Below, piece by piece: positions 3,717-11,908 of a DNA stretch of 32,093 nucleotides. The stretch covers positions 1 through 32,093 of the forward strand of contig WTKA01000103.1 of NCBI GenBank assembly GCA_011524605.1, given 5' to 3'. This stretch comes from Hyphomicrobiales bacterium (GTDB taxonomy: Bacteria > Pseudomonadota > Alphaproteobacteria > Rhizobiales > WTKA01). The notes under the pieces are model-generated. The model was not told the origin of the DNA. It saw nothing but the letters and a program-made list of their open reading frames with translations, and did no database searches. The translations under genes and the position numbers were made by a program. Each line of letters begins with the position of its first letter. The first letter of the stretch is position 1.

Positions 3717-4832
3717 TCATGAGCCTAAACGGTCAAAATAAATTTGTTCAATTTGATCAACCATTGTTTCAATGGAAAACTCAGTAGATATTTTTTCTAA
3801 GCGTTTTTCACTTGTTTCAATGGCTTCTGCATCATTATCCAGCATTTGTGCCATTAAAGAGGACAGCTGGTTTACATCTTCTGATGTAAATAAGTAAGGA
3901 TCATTTTCTAGCATGATTTCTCCAATACCTCCAACATTGGAGGCAATGACAGGCAATCCCGCGCCAATTGCTTCTAAAAGGACGTAAGGCAGGGATTCAT
4001 TGCGTGAGGGCATAATAAGATATTTTGCTTTTGCAAAAGCTTCTCTTGCTGGCTGTGGCTCTTCAAAATCAACATAATCTGTTAGGCCAAGATTTTGCGC
4101 CATATCAACATAGGTTTTCGCATCAGGGCCTGCGCCTACAATCAGAGCTTTTTCTTTCAATAGATGGTTATTTTTTAACTCAGCTAATGCCTTAAGAAAA
4201 ATATCAATACCTTTTAAGCTGCGTAACTCCCCCAAAAATATCCAATCATATTGAGGTTGATTTTGTGTATGGACAGGACTTGTTTCAGCCTTAGATATGC
4301 CGTTATGAATAATTTCGGTCTCATAATGGCTATTCTTTAAAATGGAAGTAAATTTACGCTCGGCAAATTGGCTCTCAAAAATAATTCTACTTGTCTTTTT
4401 TAAAAGAAGTTTTTCAATCTGCCAGAAAATCGCGCCCAGAGGCTTTTTGGGAGAATAATGTAAAATACCGCCATGGGGGGTATAAAAAGCAGGAATATTA
4501 TGAGCGCCAATTCTAGAAAATAACCCGCCTTTTGCGCCATGACCATGCAGAATATCTAATTTTTGCTCTTTAGCAATTTTTCTGATTTTGTAGCCAGTAA
4601 GTCCGTCTTTTATGGAAGGCATACGCCCCATGGGAAATTCATAAATACCGAGCTTACAATTTTCAGATAAATCAGTAAGGCGTTGTTTTTCAAAATCATT
4701 TGGCGGTACCGCGCAGATAAGAGCTATTTCATGCCCTCTATTATCTAGCTCTGTTGTTAGATCTCTGACATGGCGAAATAACCCGCCCATAGGGGCTCTG
4801 AAAATTTGAGCAATACGCAATTTTTTATTCAT
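3717..4832 (-). CDS. Glycosyltransferase family 4 (GT-B)
   Basis: MGGLFRHVRDLTTELDNRGHEIALI at the N-terminus and the C-terminal motif MPSRNESLPYVLLEAIGAGLPVIASNVGGIGEIM. Confidence 0.92.
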   Translation of the reverse strand: MNKKLRIAQIFRAPMGGLFRHVRDLTTELDNRGHEIALICAVPPNDFEKQRLTDLSENCKLGIYEFPMGRMPSIKDGLTGYKIRKIAKEQKLDILHGHGAKGGLFSRIGAHNIPAFYTPHGGILHYSPKKPLGAIFWQIEKLLLKKTSRIIFESQFAERKFTSILKNSHYETEIIHNGISKAETSPVHTQNQPQYDWIFLGELRSLKGIDIFLKALAELKNNHLLKEKALIVGAGPDAKTYVDMAQNLGLTDYVDFEEPQPAREAFAKAKYLIMPSRNESLPYVLLEAIGAGLPVIASNVGGIGEIMLENDPYLFTSEDVNQLSSLMAQMLDNDAEAIETSEKRLEKISTEFSIETMVDQIEQIYFDRLGS

Positions 4833-4844
4833 TAATTTCAGACC

Positions 4845-5936
4845 TTAATATTGGGTAGGGTCTTGATAATAGGGGCGAAGATTAATAGGTGGTGAAAAGC
4901 CATCATCTGCAATGATAGATTGGTTCGTAGGGTCATATATCGTATTATTATCATAACCTGATACAGGTGTTGGGTAATTATAACGAGTGGAGGCCATGTT
5001 CTCAGGGCGTTGTAAAGATTTTGCAGCCATCTCTATTTGACTTTCTGAGGGAGAAAGAGGAATGTTTTGAGGGTTATTTATTTGCATTTGCTGCAAATTA
5101 TTCAGCTGCTGCGCTTGACTATTTTGATAGACTTGCATTTCATGAAGTTTATTCTGAAAACGTTTGCTTTTAAACCTATTGAGATTTTGCTGATTATTCT
5201 GCCCTAAAGTGGCGCCAGCAGGATAAATGGGTTGCACTGCTTGTGTTACAGCCTGTTGATTTTGTTGAAGATTTTGCTGAAGATTTTGGGGTGCGTATAA
5301 TTGGGGTTGTTGTGGCTGCATATGCAGGCTTGTGTTATGCGGATGGGAAGCATTGTTTGATAGGCCAAACCCAAATGATTGTTGAGGTATTTCGATGACA
5401 TCCCCAGGGAAAATTGTGAAGTCAAGAGGGACTTGACCTGAATAGGGTTGCCCGTTGACGTTACGAACAATGCGCGCATATTTTTTATCTGCATAGTCTG
5501 TAAAACCGCCCGCCATGGCGATCGCACGGCGTACTGTTACCCCTGAAAAGAAATCAAATTGGTTTGAATTAAGGACTTCTCCTGAAATGAAAAAAGGGCG
5601 AAACTTTTCAATTTGCACAGCGACTTGTGGGCTTCTTATATAATTGCGTGAGAGTTCATAGGTAATTGTTTGGGCAATTTTTTCTGTTGTCATTGCATCA
5701 ACATTGATTTGCCCAATCATGGGCATGGAAATTTCATTGCTAGCACTAACACGATATATTTGAGATAATTCTTGCTCCCCATATACACTGACTTTGATTT
5801 GGTCATCAGGGCCAACAAAATAAGGCTCTGTCCCCCAAGCCTTAATCATGGGGTTTATATGCATTGTATTTGAACTAACACAGCCTGAAACTGCTAATAA
5901 GAGAATAAATATAAAGTAATTAAATTTTAAAAACAT
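4845..5936 (-). CDS. Polysaccharide export outer-membrane lipoprotein (Wza/BexD-like) with Q/N-rich C-terminal tail
   Basis: Lipobox (LLLAVSGC), poly_export domain (YFVGPDDQIKVSVYGEQELSQIYRVSASNEISMPMIGQI), SLBB-like part (FFISGEVLNSNQFDFFSGVTVRRAIAMAGGFTDYADKKYARIVR), then a long Q/N-rich tail. Confidence 0.9.
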   Translation of the reverse strand: MFLKFNYFIFILLLAVSGCVSSNTMHINPMIKAWGTEPYFVGPDDQIKVSVYGEQELSQIYRVSASNEISMPMIGQINVDAMTTEKIAQTITYELSRNYIRSPQVAVQIEKFRPFFISGEVLNSNQFDFFSGVTVRRAIAMAGGFTDYADKKYARIVRNVNGQPYSGQVPLDFTIFPGDVIEIPQQSFGFGLSNNASHPHNTSLHMQPQQPQLYAPQNLQQNLQQNQQAVTQAVQPIYPAGATLGQNNQQNLNRFKSKRFQNKLHEMQVYQNSQAQQLNNLQQMQINNPQNIPLSPSESQIEMAAKSLQRPENMASTRYNYPTPVSGYDNNTIYDPTNQSIIADDGFSPPINLRPYYQDPTQY

Positions 5937-6148: not shown

Positions 6149-8737
6149 ATGGCACAGCAAGACGCTGAAGTAGATATTGGTGCTGTAATGGGTGCTTTAA
6201 AGAAAGCAGCAGTTCCCATTGCAGTTGTTGCAGCTATATTATCTTTTTTAATTTTTTCCTATCTTCTATCTAAGCCAGATATTTATCATTCTAGCGGCCA
6301 GATTATTTTAGACAGACAAGTTAATAATTTAACAGTTGCTACAACGGGTCAATTAGAGCAACTTCCAAAAGAGATATTATTAAGTCAACTCTCTGTTTTA
6401 AGTTCGAAAGAGAATGCTCGAGAAGTTTTAACCAAGCTCAACCTATTTGAAAGTGATGTGCTTGATCCTCTTGCTGATGGAGTGGGTACTGGCATGAGTA
6501 TTAAGTTATGGCTGGGTATGATTCCTGATCTGAGAGGGCTTAGTAAAGAAGAACGTATACTTTATAATTTTGATCAGCTTGTTGGCGCTAGCCTTGCCGA
6601 TGGTTCACGGGTCATAACAGTTGGTGCAGATACAGAAAATTCAGAAATTTCCGCTGATCTTGTGAATGGTCTAATCACTAATTATATTGATAATATAAAT
6701 TTAGACAGGGAAAATCTTTTAGAAAATACGCATGATGCTATTGATACTCAAATTGCGAATGTTAAAAAGCAAATTGCTGATTTAGAGCATAAATCCTTAC
6801 AAATACGCACCCAAAGCGGTATTTTTAGTATTGGAGATGGGCGTAAAGCAGAAGATGAAGAATTATCAAGATTAGCAGCAAGTTTGCTTGAGACGCAAAA
6901 TATGCGCGTTGAGCGCCAAGCAAGAGCAAAACAAATTAGGAAACTATTGTCAGAAGGGGCTTTGGATACGGCTTCTGAGGTAATTTCATCGCCCGCTGTT
7001 TCCGATATTCGTTCCCGTTTAATTACATTGTTAGAATTAAGAGCTCAGCTGTTGACTACATATTTACCGGCTCACCCTAGAGTGAAAGAAGTTGCTTCTC
7101 AAATTGCGATACAGCGTTCTGCTCTAAAGTCTGCAATGGAAAAATTTGCAAGAAATTATGATACAGAAGCGCAGATAGCTTTAGAAAAAGAGCGTAAAAT
7201 TACGGCTTCGCTAGCTGCCTTGAAAGAAGATATTCTAGATATTAATGAAGACCAAGTTAAGTTACAGTCCTATAGCCAAGAGATTACAGCGCAACGTCGC
7301 TTTCTTGAAAGTCTCATCAGCAAAAAGGAAGAAGTGACTTCACGACAAAAAACGCAACAAACAGGCGATATTTCAGCACGTCAAATCGTTATTGCCGAAA
7401 GCCCGAACGTGCCAAATCCGAAATTCGCTGGTTCTGCTTCTATTCTTACTTTTATTATCATTAATATGCTGGCGCATGGCATTGTATTTTTAATTTCAGC
7501 AATGAAAAATAATACAAAACAGCCTCATTATGCTCAACAAGCGATGCCACCTTTTAATGAGGCTTATATCAATGCTTATCATCAGATGGCTCATAATGAT
7601 AAGATGAAAAATTATAACAATATGCAAGTCCAACCAGATCGCATGCATAATGAAACTAAGTCTGAATTTACTATTGCTAGGGACTTAGAGCAGCACTCAC
7701 AGGTCCAGGCTGAGCAGGCATATGAACAAGAACATCAACAACAACATCAACAACAATCCGATAATTATAATCAGATAGATGAAGTGAGACATAAACAAGA
7801 AGCAGTTGTTGAAATAGAAGAGCTAAATACGCTCGCAAGTGAAGAATTAGCATTAGCCGACCAAAAAATTAGTGCAAAAAAACAACATATAGAAGACTAT
7901 AGTGATGACTTTTCTTTTGAAGCTAACAATGATCAACAGCGTAAAGAAGTTACAAAAAGCAAAAAGAGTAATTCTCTATTAGAGGCTGCTTTGTCAAAAG
8001 ATAATAGTATTTATCTAGATGATAGAGACCTGCAAAAAAAACAAGCCAATGAATTACTCGGAAATGAGATAAAGCATGATGATGTATTTACGCCAGCCAT
8101 ACATCATAATGATCAAAATATGCGGATTGTAGAGCCTGTTTTTGTTGATCGTATAAGCATAGAGGCTATGTATCATCAATATTTAAAGATTAAGCCACAA
8201 CTTTCAAGCCGTAGAATATTGATTACAGGGCAAACAGATTTTCTTACAGCTATTGCAGGTATTGAATTTAGTCGCGCCTGTTTTCGTGCTGGTAAACGTG
8301 TTTGCTTGGTCGATGCTACTTTAAAAATGAATCTTCTAAACCAACAGTTAGGCTTAAATGCACCTTTAGGTTTAGCTGAAATCTTACGAAATACACATAA
8401 TTTACAGAGTGTGTTAGCTATGGATGTTTCTTCTGGGATGTCAATATTAGCTGGCGGCAATGTTAATGGGCTAGACATGCGCGCTTTACAAAGCGCTGAA
8501 ATGGCACTATTATTATCTCATCTTGAAAATCATTTTGATTATATATGCTTTTGCGGTCCAAATTTGTCTGTTTATGATCAAAAAAGTCACTTTTTAAATA
8601 TGTTTGAATTTATATTGCTTGCAGCACAAGTAGGGCAAGATCGGGATGTGCTTGAGCACAGGGTAAATATGTTAAAATCATTAGGTAAAAATCAGCAAAA
8701 TGGGTTAAGTTCAACAACTGATTTTCGAGTAGGGTAG
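6149..8737 (+). CDS. Wzz/GumC/Wzc-like polysaccharide chain-length/export protein with a degenerate C-terminal BY-kinase-type ATPase domain
   Basis: N-terminal TM and Wzz domain (YHSSGQIILDRQVNNLTV), coiled coil, ESPNVPNPKFAGSASILTFIIINML TM2 region, Q/H-rich linker, and a C-terminal ParA/BY-kinase-like fold (RRILITGQTDFLTAIAGIEFSRACFRAGKRVCLVDATLKMNLLNQQLGL) lacking the P-loop Lys. Confidence 0.88.
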   Translation: MAQQDAEVDIGAVMGALKKAAVPIAVVAAILSFLIFSYLLSKPDIYHSSGQIILDRQVNNLTVATTGQLEQLPKEILLSQLSVLSSKENAREVLTKLNLFESDVLDPLADGVGTGMSIKLWLGMIPDLRGLSKEERILYNFDQLVGASLADGSRVITVGADTENSEISADLVNGLITNYIDNINLDRENLLENTHDAIDTQIANVKKQIADLEHKSLQIRTQSGIFSIGDGRKAEDEELSRLAASLLETQNMRVERQARAKQIRKLLSEGALDTASEVISSPAVSDIRSRLITLLELRAQLLTTYLPAHPRVKEVASQIAIQRSALKSAMEKFARNYDTEAQIALEKERKITASLAALKEDILDINEDQVKLQSYSQEITAQRRFLESLISKKEEVTSRQKTQQTGDISARQIVIAESPNVPNPKFAGSASILTFIIINMLAHGIVFLISAMKNNTKQPHYAQQAMPPFNEAYINAYHQMAHNDKMKNYNNMQVQPDRMHNETKSEFTIARDLEQHSQVQAEQAYEQEHQQQHQQQSDNYNQIDEVRHKQEAVVEIEELNTLASEELALADQKISAKKQHIEDYSDDFSFEANNDQQRKEVTKSKKSNSLLEAALSKDNSIYLDDRDLQKKQANELLGNEIKHDDVFTPAIHHNDQNMRIVEPVFVDRISIEAMYHQYLKIKPQLSSRRILITGQTDFLTAIAGIEFSRACFRAGKRVCLVDATLKMNLLNQQLGLNAPLGLAEILRNTHNLQSVLAMDVSSGMSILAGGNVNGLDMRALQSAEMALLLSHLENHFDYICFCGPNLSVYDQKSHFLNMFEFILLAAQVGQDRDVLEHRVNMLKSLGKNQQNGLSSTTDFRVG

Positions 8738-8740
8738 GGT

Positions 8741-9754
8741 ATGAGGTATTTTTCTATTAAAGCCTGTTTGGCTTTCTTAGGACTAACTGGTCTGCATTAT
8801 TTATACCGCCCAATTGGTCAGGGGCAGGGTATAATTTTTACTTTGCACCGGGTCACCAATAAAAAGCCCAATAAGTTTAGCCCAAACTCAATTTTACAAA
8901 TTCAGCCTGACTTTTTAGATCGTCTTCTTTATTTTTTACGTAGAAAAAATATTGATATCATTTCGATGGATGAAGCAATTGCACGCATTCAAGGGGGCAA
9001 AAAATCTGATAATTTCTTTGTCGTTTTCACTTTAGATGATGGGTATAAAGATAATTTATTAGAAGCACTCCCCATATTTGAAAAGCATAACGCCCCTTTT
9101 ACAATTTATATTCCTACAATCTATATTGATGGTCTTGGGGAGCTTTGGTGGCAAAATCTTGAAGATATTATTTCGAAGATAGACGCAGTAGGCTATGTTG
9201 ATAATAATATTTCAAGATATATAAAATGCCGCTCTCTTTCTGAAAAAAGAGCAGCTTTTGACAAAATGTATAAATGGCTTAATAGCTTAGATCAAATTGA
9301 GCAAAGAATTCAAATTAATGACTTAGCAGCGCGTTATAGCTATGATTGCCAGGAAAATTGCCGCGAGCTAATCATGGACTGGAACCAGCTTAAGCTGTTA
9401 GCTAGCAATCCTCTTGTGACCATTGGTGCGCATACGGTTCATCATTATAATTTAGCAAAATTAAGTAGCGAGAAATTAGAACAAGAAATGGCGCTGGGTG
9501 CAGATATTCTTGAAAAAAGCTTAGGGGTTAGGCCAAAGCATTTCTCCTATCCCTACGGCTGGAAAACGGCTTTTGGGGCACGAGAATTTAGAATGACAGA
9601 AAAACTTGGCTTTGCCTCAGGAGTGACGACCTCGTTTGGTACGATTAAAATCAAGGATAACCTGAATATATATGGTCTTCCGCGAATATCTCTCAATGGA
9701 AAATTTCAATCTGTCTTTTGGACAAATGTTTTGTTAAGTGGAAAACCATTTTGA
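8741..9754 (+). CDS. Polysaccharide deacetylase (NodB homology, CE4)
   Basis: FTLDDGYKDNLLEALPIFEKHNAPFTIYIPT, then GAHTVHHYNLAKLS (metal-site HxxxH) and FSYPYGWK. Confidence 0.92.
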   Translation: MRYFSIKACLAFLGLTGLHYLYRPIGQGQGIIFTLHRVTNKKPNKFSPNSILQIQPDFLDRLLYFLRRKNIDIISMDEAIARIQGGKKSDNFFVVFTLDDGYKDNLLEALPIFEKHNAPFTIYIPTIYIDGLGELWWQNLEDIISKIDAVGYVDNNISRYIKCRSLSEKRAAFDKMYKWLNSLDQIEQRIQINDLAARYSYDCQENCRELIMDWNQLKLLASNPLVTIGAHTVHHYNLAKLSSEKLEQEMALGADILEKSLGVRPKHFSYPYGWKTAFGAREFRMTEKLGFASGVTTSFGTIKIKDNLNIYGLPRISLNGKFQSVFWTNVLLSGKPF

Positions 9755-10075: not shown

Positions 10076-11125
10076 ATGCCCATTTTAGCCCCTACTTACC
10101 AAAGTCTTTATGACGTCAAATATTATTGGTCAATTATTATTTGGATGTTTTGCGTGGCCTTATTGATTTTTGCCATGGTTATTGTAGGCGGTGCAACAAG
10201 GCTAACAGATTCTGGTCTTTCAATCACTGAGTGGAAGCCTATTTTAGGGGCTATACCACCCTTGTCGCTTGAAGAATGGTTGTTAGCATTTGAAAAATAT
10301 AAAGCAATTCCTGAGTATCAGCTTGTAAATAAAGGTATGAGCCTAGAAGAATTTAAAGTTATATTCTGGTGGGAGTGGGGGCATAGATTTCTAGGGCGTA
10401 TCATTGGTATTATCTATGCTGTACCCTTCTTTATTTTTGCTTTAATGGGATGCTTTAACCGTCGCTTATTCCTCATTCTGTTTTTAATTTTATGCTTAGG
10501 CGGATTACAAGGCTATATGGGTTGGTTCATGGTGCAATCAGGTTTAGTGGAAAGAGTTGATGTCTCTCACTATCGTTTAGCGATGCATCTAAGCCTTGCA
10601 GCTGTTATATTTGCTTTAATCATTTGGGTTGGATCACGAATTGCCGCGCAAAGATATACAGGCATCATCTATGCTAAGGCAGGTAACTTCAGTGTAGCTC
10701 TTATTGTATTATGCCTATTTCAAATAGTCTCTGGCGCTTTTGTCGCAGGTCTTGATGCAGGGAAGGTGTATAATACATGGCCTTTAATGGATGGGCACTT
10801 TATTCCTGATCAGCTATTTCTAGAAACGGGTTTAAATGCTATATTTAGTGATCATATGAATATTCAATTCATTCATAGAATGATTGCTTATCTTCTGTGT
10901 ATTTTTGTTATTATGTATGGGTTGCTTCGCTTCATCAATAGATCAATGCGCGTTACATCCATTCTCATGATTATACTGGTGTTTTGCCAAGCAGGCATCG
11001 GTATTTTAACGCTATTATGGAATGTACCAGTATCTCTTGCGCTTGTTCATCAGGCAGGTGCATTTGCTCTATTAGCTGTGCTAGTGCACCATCGTGCCTG
11101 TTTTTATAGGCTTAGGAAGATATAG
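10076..11125 (+). CDS. ctaA: Heme A synthase (COX15/CtaA)
   Basis: GGATRLTDSGLSITEWKPILGAIPPLSLEEWLLAFEKYKAIPEYQ, WWEWGHRFLGRIIG, VAGLDAGKVYNTWPLMDGHFIP, FIHRMIAY, LVHQAGAFALL. Confidence 0.97.
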   Translation: MPILAPTYQSLYDVKYYWSIIIWMFCVALLIFAMVIVGGATRLTDSGLSITEWKPILGAIPPLSLEEWLLAFEKYKAIPEYQLVNKGMSLEEFKVIFWWEWGHRFLGRIIGIIYAVPFFIFALMGCFNRRLFLILFLILCLGGLQGYMGWFMVQSGLVERVDVSHYRLAMHLSLAAVIFALIIWVGSRIAAQRYTGIIYAKAGNFSVALIVLCLFQIVSGAFVAGLDAGKVYNTWPLMDGHFIPDQLFLETGLNAIFSDHMNIQFIHRMIAYLLCIFVIMYGLLRFINRSMRVTSILMIILVFCQAGIGILTLLWNVPVSLALVHQAGAFALLAVLVHHRACFYRLRKI

Positions 11126-11251: not shown

Positions 11252-11908
11252 TTAGACAGCAATTGGCTTATCAGGAAATGCAAGTTGTTCGCGTGCACGC
11301 CATTCATCTGTCACATAATTAATAATGATAGATTTGCGAATGCCTTCAATTTTTCTTGGCTCAAAACCATGCCAGCTATGATCTGAAGGAATGAAAATCA
11401 TCGTTGAGTTAGGCTTGAATGGAGATCGAGCAACATGGGTGTCCTTATCAGCATATATGTCTGTGCCAAGCTCTCTATGCTGCTCGTCATCTGAAATGTA
11501 GAACAGCATTGTAAATAGTTTAGGGCCAATATCTGTGTGCGGAACAAGCCAAAACCCATCTATGTCCTGTGCATACTCTATGCGTAGATAGCTGCCCGTT
11601 AAATCAACTTCACATTTATTTTGGATTGTTGAAATGACTTCTTTTGACTGGAAAGCTTTTGCAAGATCACTACAAACGCCATATTTTTGCTGATTCTCAA
11701 TATCAAAATAGACACGTGTTTTATTATTAATTTCACGCGTTCCCGATTCTTCAAGTGCGCTTGGGCTTTCAAAAGGCAAAGACCTTAATGACTGGCTAAC
11801 GTCATCAGGAACCACATTATCAAAAATCCAGTGGTTATAGGGCTCATTTATTGTTTCTGCATTATTGAAGCTATTAATAAAACAAGAGCCAATTTGTGTT
11901 GCGTTCAT
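11252..11908 (-). CDS. 2-oxoglutarate/Fe(II)-dependent oxygenase family protein
   Basis: Facial-triad region (GFWLVPHTDIGPKLFTMLFYISDDEQHRELGTDIY) and distal HGFEPRKIEGIRKSIIINYV. Confidence 0.82.
   Translation of the reverse strand: MNATQIGSCFINSFNNAETINEPYNHWIFDNVVPDDVSQSLRSLPFESPSALEESGTREINNKTRVYFDIENQQKYGVCSDLAKAFQSKEVISTIQNKCEVDLTGSYLRIEYAQDIDGFWLVPHTDIGPKLFTMLFYISDDEQHRELGTDIYADKDTHVARSPFKPNSTMIFIPSDHSWHGFEPRKIEGIRKSIIINYVTDEWRAREQLAFPDKPIAV

Follow-up and report, generated by a model that had tools for sequence, protein, structure and literature searches.

The Hyphomicrobiales window, a 32,093-nucleotide stretch of contig WTKA01000103.1, encodes a PCP-2a-type polysaccharide co-polymerase of 862 aa with a C-terminal BY pseudokinase domain (6149-8737, forward strand), as identified from the ORF call, family models, and the tree. 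That this domain is a pseudokinase and not a kinase is held at a probability of about 0.85; its exact job is less certain than this figure. Judging from the sequences compared, the pseudokinase co-polymerase is the rule for the orthologous locus across Hyphomicrobiales and is not peculiar to the window gene. Fused proteins of this kind are already in the literature (PMC12004946), and the window protein is a divergent member.

The periplasmic and transmembrane half of the protein resembles that of known co-polymerases. The exopolysaccharide transport family model TIGR01005 matches residues 5-442 (1e-25), while Pfam Wzz gives E=0.0013, under its gathering score. A hydropathy scan predicts transmembrane segments at residues 22-40 (6212-6268) and 431-450 (7439-7498), the second preceded by the Pro-containing stretch SPNVPNPKF. 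A Wzz-type domain between two transmembrane-like segments, the mark of PCP-2 proteins, is thus present by TIGR01005, the sub-cut-off Wzz match, and the hydropathy profile. The first-pass annotation had described a fusion to an intact Wzz region; by its sequence matches, the region is real but divergent. It is followed by a Q/E/N-rich cytoplasmic linker of ~200 residues (about 456-657; 7514-8119), which is longer than in two relatives aligned with the window protein. The BY pseudokinase domain occupies residues 658-862 (8120-8734), all on the forward strand.

The AlphaFold2 model of residues 658-862, computed with an input of 52 domain sequences, has a mean pLDDT of 87.3 and a pTM of 0.84, and pLDDT falls below 50 for the last ten residues only. 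When the model was compared with the PDB by Foldseek, the top 50 matches were all BY-kinases, including CapAB, Etk, Wzc, VpsO, and BceF, with a TM score normalised by query of ~0.75 and identities of 12-18%. By sequence, the BceF kinase domain is the closest protein of solved structure (2e-7), and the BY-kinase family model TIGR01007 matches residues 708-847 (1e-8, under its cut-off). The ParA/BY-kinase fold suspected in the first-pass annotation is therefore borne out by structure prediction. Since the top 50 Foldseek matches are all BY-kinases and the motifs are degenerate, the domain is, by model and sequence, a BY-kinase fold from which the catalytic residues are gone.

Alignment with canonical kinases locates the losses. 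The Walker A position reads ITGQTDFLTA (residues 692-701; 8222-8251, slightly displaced from the 8215-8250 first given) and has no GxGK[ST]; the lack of the Lys reported earlier is confirmed. The Walker A' position is CLVDATLKMN (residues 719-728; 8303-8332), as first described, with the first Asp retained (D722), the second replaced by T724, and the Arg by K726. Walker B is ICFCGPN (8543-8563), in which the Asp is replaced by Cys (C802). The C-terminal tail NGLSSTTDFRVG (8699-8734), where model confidence is low over the last ten residues, has no Tyr, and none occurs in the last 40 residues, in agreement with the reported lack of a tyrosine cluster. The window protein consequently lacks these marks of a canonical BY-kinase or PCP-2a protein such as Wzc: Walker A GxGK[ST], Walker A' DxDxR, the Asp of Walker B, and a Tyr cluster at the C-terminus. 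What it does have is a BY-kinase fold stripped of its catalytic motifs and joined to a PCP-2 in a single chain. A sequencing error, an assembly error, and a recent pseudogene were rejected as explanations, because syntenic relatives share the motif loss and the ORF is open over its full length.

A protein search of 101 Hyphomicrobiales genomes found relatives in 91, canonical PCPs counted too. The best relatives whose ORF extends into the kinase-like domain all lack Walker A, save the second PCP of the organism's own genome. Scanning named genomes yielded 80 loci, and their titles place nearly all of them in Hyphomicrobiales, including Tepidamorphus, Lutibaculum, Enterovirga, Phyllobacterium, Hansschlegelia, Methylobacterium, Methylorubrum, Roseitalea, and Salinarimonas. 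One low-coverage contig (L083), filed under Nostoc sp. CHAB 5715, has the locus in a form resembling that of Hansschlegelia and is probably a contaminant contig. No P-loop is present at the Walker A position in any of the 76 loci aligned over the site, and two pattern matches (L106 and L123) fall outside the stretch aligned to Walker A. A single-protein scan of the genome contigs with the window protein, which is too divergent for this purpose, gave no matches. A class-wide profile search matches most genomes several times each, in short ORFs of 250-300 aa and in PCP-sized ORFs; canonical kinases and ParA-like ATPases are probably among these matches, and the search was not used as a pseudokinase count.

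The control set comprised 26 PCPs of the same order chosen by the kinase family model. Their Walker A Lys position holds K in 23 of 26 and R in two, the two Walker A' Asp positions hold D in 25 and 26, and the Walker B D is present in all 26. A tree was built by a quick method from the PCP half only, so that the columns of the pseudokinase trait itself were excluded. It groups the window protein with its syntenic relatives and with the S. meliloti protein in a clade of 49 rows, drawn from many Hyphomicrobiales families (SH-aLRT 98); the other canonical PCPs and the same genome's second PCP lie outside it. The window protein is a long branch (2.57), with an identity to its relatives of at most 28%. 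In one shared alignment over the Walker A site, the Lys occurs in 0/49 clade members versus 23/26 canonical kinases of the order, and this difference (two further canonical proteins having R) makes its loss more than chance. Homologues lacking the Lys, for which a search had been suggested, thus exist, and the pseudokinase assignment of the first-pass annotation is supported by the structure prediction, this motif census, and the published BY pseudokinase class (PMC12004946). Fold, motif loss, orthology, and synteny are all computed results.

The EX2RX2R motif holds BY-kinase rings together, as in CapAB. It is missing from the window protein, and by pattern it occurs in one of the 49 clade members versus 15 of the 26 canonical proteins, a canonical figure which makes the pattern an imperfect test. 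Because this motif is lost as well, a ring-shaped scaffold is not assured, and its loss as read from sequence would count against the domain simply reproducing the ring of Wzc.

The identity of the pseudokinase domain to its relatives is low (9-22%), as might suit a decaying relic without function. A relic would be expected to be truncated or frameshifted in many relatives, whereas the domain is open, confidently foldable, and kept with its conserved structural positions in nearly all relatives from many families, which makes such decay very unlikely.

One relative appears to be half-way. One of the two control-set proteins with R, L161, was placed inside the 49-row clade; this PCP (L161/L176, genome G036, G036:C14:64500-84400) retains GQGRT, DADFG, and IDAP. 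The gene order around it is Wzy-PHPT-GT4-Wza|PCP-GNAT-deacetylase-CtaA, the same arrangement as elsewhere. By its sequence it may represent a stage between kinase and pseudokinase. If its placement in the tree is right, motif decay was gradual and would have been incomplete in the common ancestor.

This near-complete site, together with the conserved Rossmann-like core, the first Walker A' Asp, and several fold positions (G741, D797), would also suit a domain that still acts as a nucleotide-dependent switch or sensor, binding ATP, ADP, or another nucleotide such as a second messenger without a P-loop. Such a role is unlikely, as the residue replacing the Walker A Lys differs among members (A, S, T, R, I, C, G), there is variation at Walker B and Walker A', and no new conserved pocket is seen in the alignment.

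The window gene lies in a polysaccharide export locus. Upstream, on the reverse strand, are a GT4 glycosyltransferase (3717-4832) and a Wza-type outer-membrane polysaccharide export protein (4845-5936; Poly_export + SLBB). The latter is extended at its C-terminus by a Q/N-rich stretch of ~170 residues, and the S. meliloti Wza has only 191 aa in total. On the forward strand, a polysaccharide deacetylase (8741-9754) follows directly downstream and, after a gap, a COX15/CtaA-like protein (10076-11125), which serves as a synteny marker and lies outside the pathway. CtaA is adjoined by a 2OG-Fe(II) oxygenase-like protein (11252-11908, reverse strand) with a weak Pfam match. The order GT4-Wza|PCP-deacetylase-CtaA recurs in 19 stretches from other families and in the 80 named loci. 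Of the 80, 31 have all five genes and 77 have Wza with PCP, many contigs or stretches ending early. By sequence comparison, the order appears largely conserved across Hyphomicrobiales, and mostly so in S. meliloti.

The locus of S. meliloti strain Ak57 reads GT4-Wzy-PHPT-GT4-Wza|PCP-acetyltransferases-...-CtaA, with CtaA about 3.3 kb beyond the PCP; the window deacetylase has no match in this cluster. Proteins matching its PHPT (47% identity) and Wzy (33%) are adjacent on contig C122 of the organism's own genome (L175 3166-5903), separate from the window locus. In Bradyrhizobium, uppC is likewise apart from the other upp genes (PMC12727192). Judged against the S. meliloti cluster and not the A. 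tumefaciens upp genes themselves, the components of a unipolar-polysaccharide (UPP)-type locus are present: Wza (UppC-like), GT4, and PCP together, and PHPT (UppE-like) with Wzy on the other contig. Owing to the synteny and similarity to the S. meliloti cluster, the product is probably a unipolar-polysaccharide-like adhesin.

A TIGR01007 search for a separate CpsD kinase, as the first-pass annotation had envisaged, covered this genome and returned a second PCP, whose P-loop is intact. It lies on contig C73 (L059 10388-12730), adjoins a recA-like gene, and has intact STVTGEGKS, LIDADFHN, and IIIDVPP; no Tyr-rich tail is found in it. An LMW phosphatase family gene (PF01451) is also present. These two genes indicate that the genome may have phosphorylation machinery, probably for another product. 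The second PCP and the PssP2-PssP interaction in R. leguminosarum (PMC4182512) raise the alternative that the window protein forms mixed rings with this protein, which would give the ATP site in trans. That arrangement is quite unlikely: the second PCP lacks a Tyr-rich tail, is encoded on a different contig, and is not a clade member, and the window protein offers no Tyr tail for phosphorylation.

BY pseudokinases were defined, and fused PCP/pseudokinases named, by Blocher et al. 2025 (PMC12004946). The fused examples, after Cuthbertson et al., are SMc01795 (S. meliloti), Brucella ceti BCETI_6000729, Mlr8439, and V. vulnificus VV1_2305 (PMC12004946). Like the window protein, they combine in a single chain a transmembrane and periplasmic PCP part with a BY-kinase domain devoid of the motifs. 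The S. meliloti protein of the syntenic locus (L039 11749-13887) is in the same clade and likewise lacks the motifs; from its annotation and ctaA neighbourhood, locus tag aside, it is taken to be SMc01795 itself. It differs in having only 24% identity to the window protein over the PCP part, and the window protein has the long Q/N/E-rich linker.

EcpK, a motif-less BY-kinase homologue, binds its PCP and is required for EPS synthesis, and both EcpK and HfsB are BY pseudokinases required for polysaccharide export (PMC12004946). EcpK/EpsV of Myxococcus xanthus and HfsB/HfsA of the Caulobacter holdfast share with the window protein a BY-kinase fold that lacks both the catalytic motifs and a Tyr tail, but their pseudokinase is a separate protein. 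The canonical PCP-2a proteins Wzc and ExoP have in common with it the Wzz half, two transmembrane helices, and the C-terminal BY-kinase fold, whereas the window protein lacks the Walker A, A', and B catalytic residues, the Tyr tail, and EX2RX2R. R. leguminosarum PssP2 is kinase-like without the specific motifs, phosphorylation of it was not seen, and it alters EPS chain length (PMC4182512). Its likeness to the window protein is drawn from its published description; it is shorter (586 aa) and belongs to a different gene cluster.

The window protein would therefore be, in the reading preferred here, the co-polymerase in a unipolar-polysaccharide-like export system of the Wzx/Wzy type. The periplasmic and transmembrane half would assemble and would link polymerisation by Wzy to the Wza-like exporter of the adjacent gene. 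The cytoplasmic BY-kinase fold would have neither P-loop ATP binding nor Tyr-tail phosphorylation, and is probably retained to provide structural scaffolding or protein docking. With both activities lost, the system most likely does not depend on cycles of autophosphorylation by this protein; we infer this phosphorylation independence, as we do the polymer identity. The scaffold role first proposed agrees with the published pseudokinase class, but it is suggested by analogy with EcpK and HfsB and not by the window protein itself.

A wider reading is offered tentatively, at a little under even odds: the co-polymerase of the order's unipolar-polysaccharide-type locus may have lost tyrosine phosphorylation, apparently stepwise in several lineages, with polymer export controlled otherwise, and, the ring motif being lost too, the domain may have a job other than the octamer ring. 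The census, the synteny, the loss of the EX2RX2R ring motif, and the relative with a half-decayed P-loop are new here. They provide an order-wide data set for a class published in 2025 from a few examples, and allow the need for phosphorylation cycles in such co-polymerases to be tested in tractable Sinorhizobium or Methylobacterium. If the stepwise-loss reading is true, something other than tyrosine phosphorylation must control polymer export.
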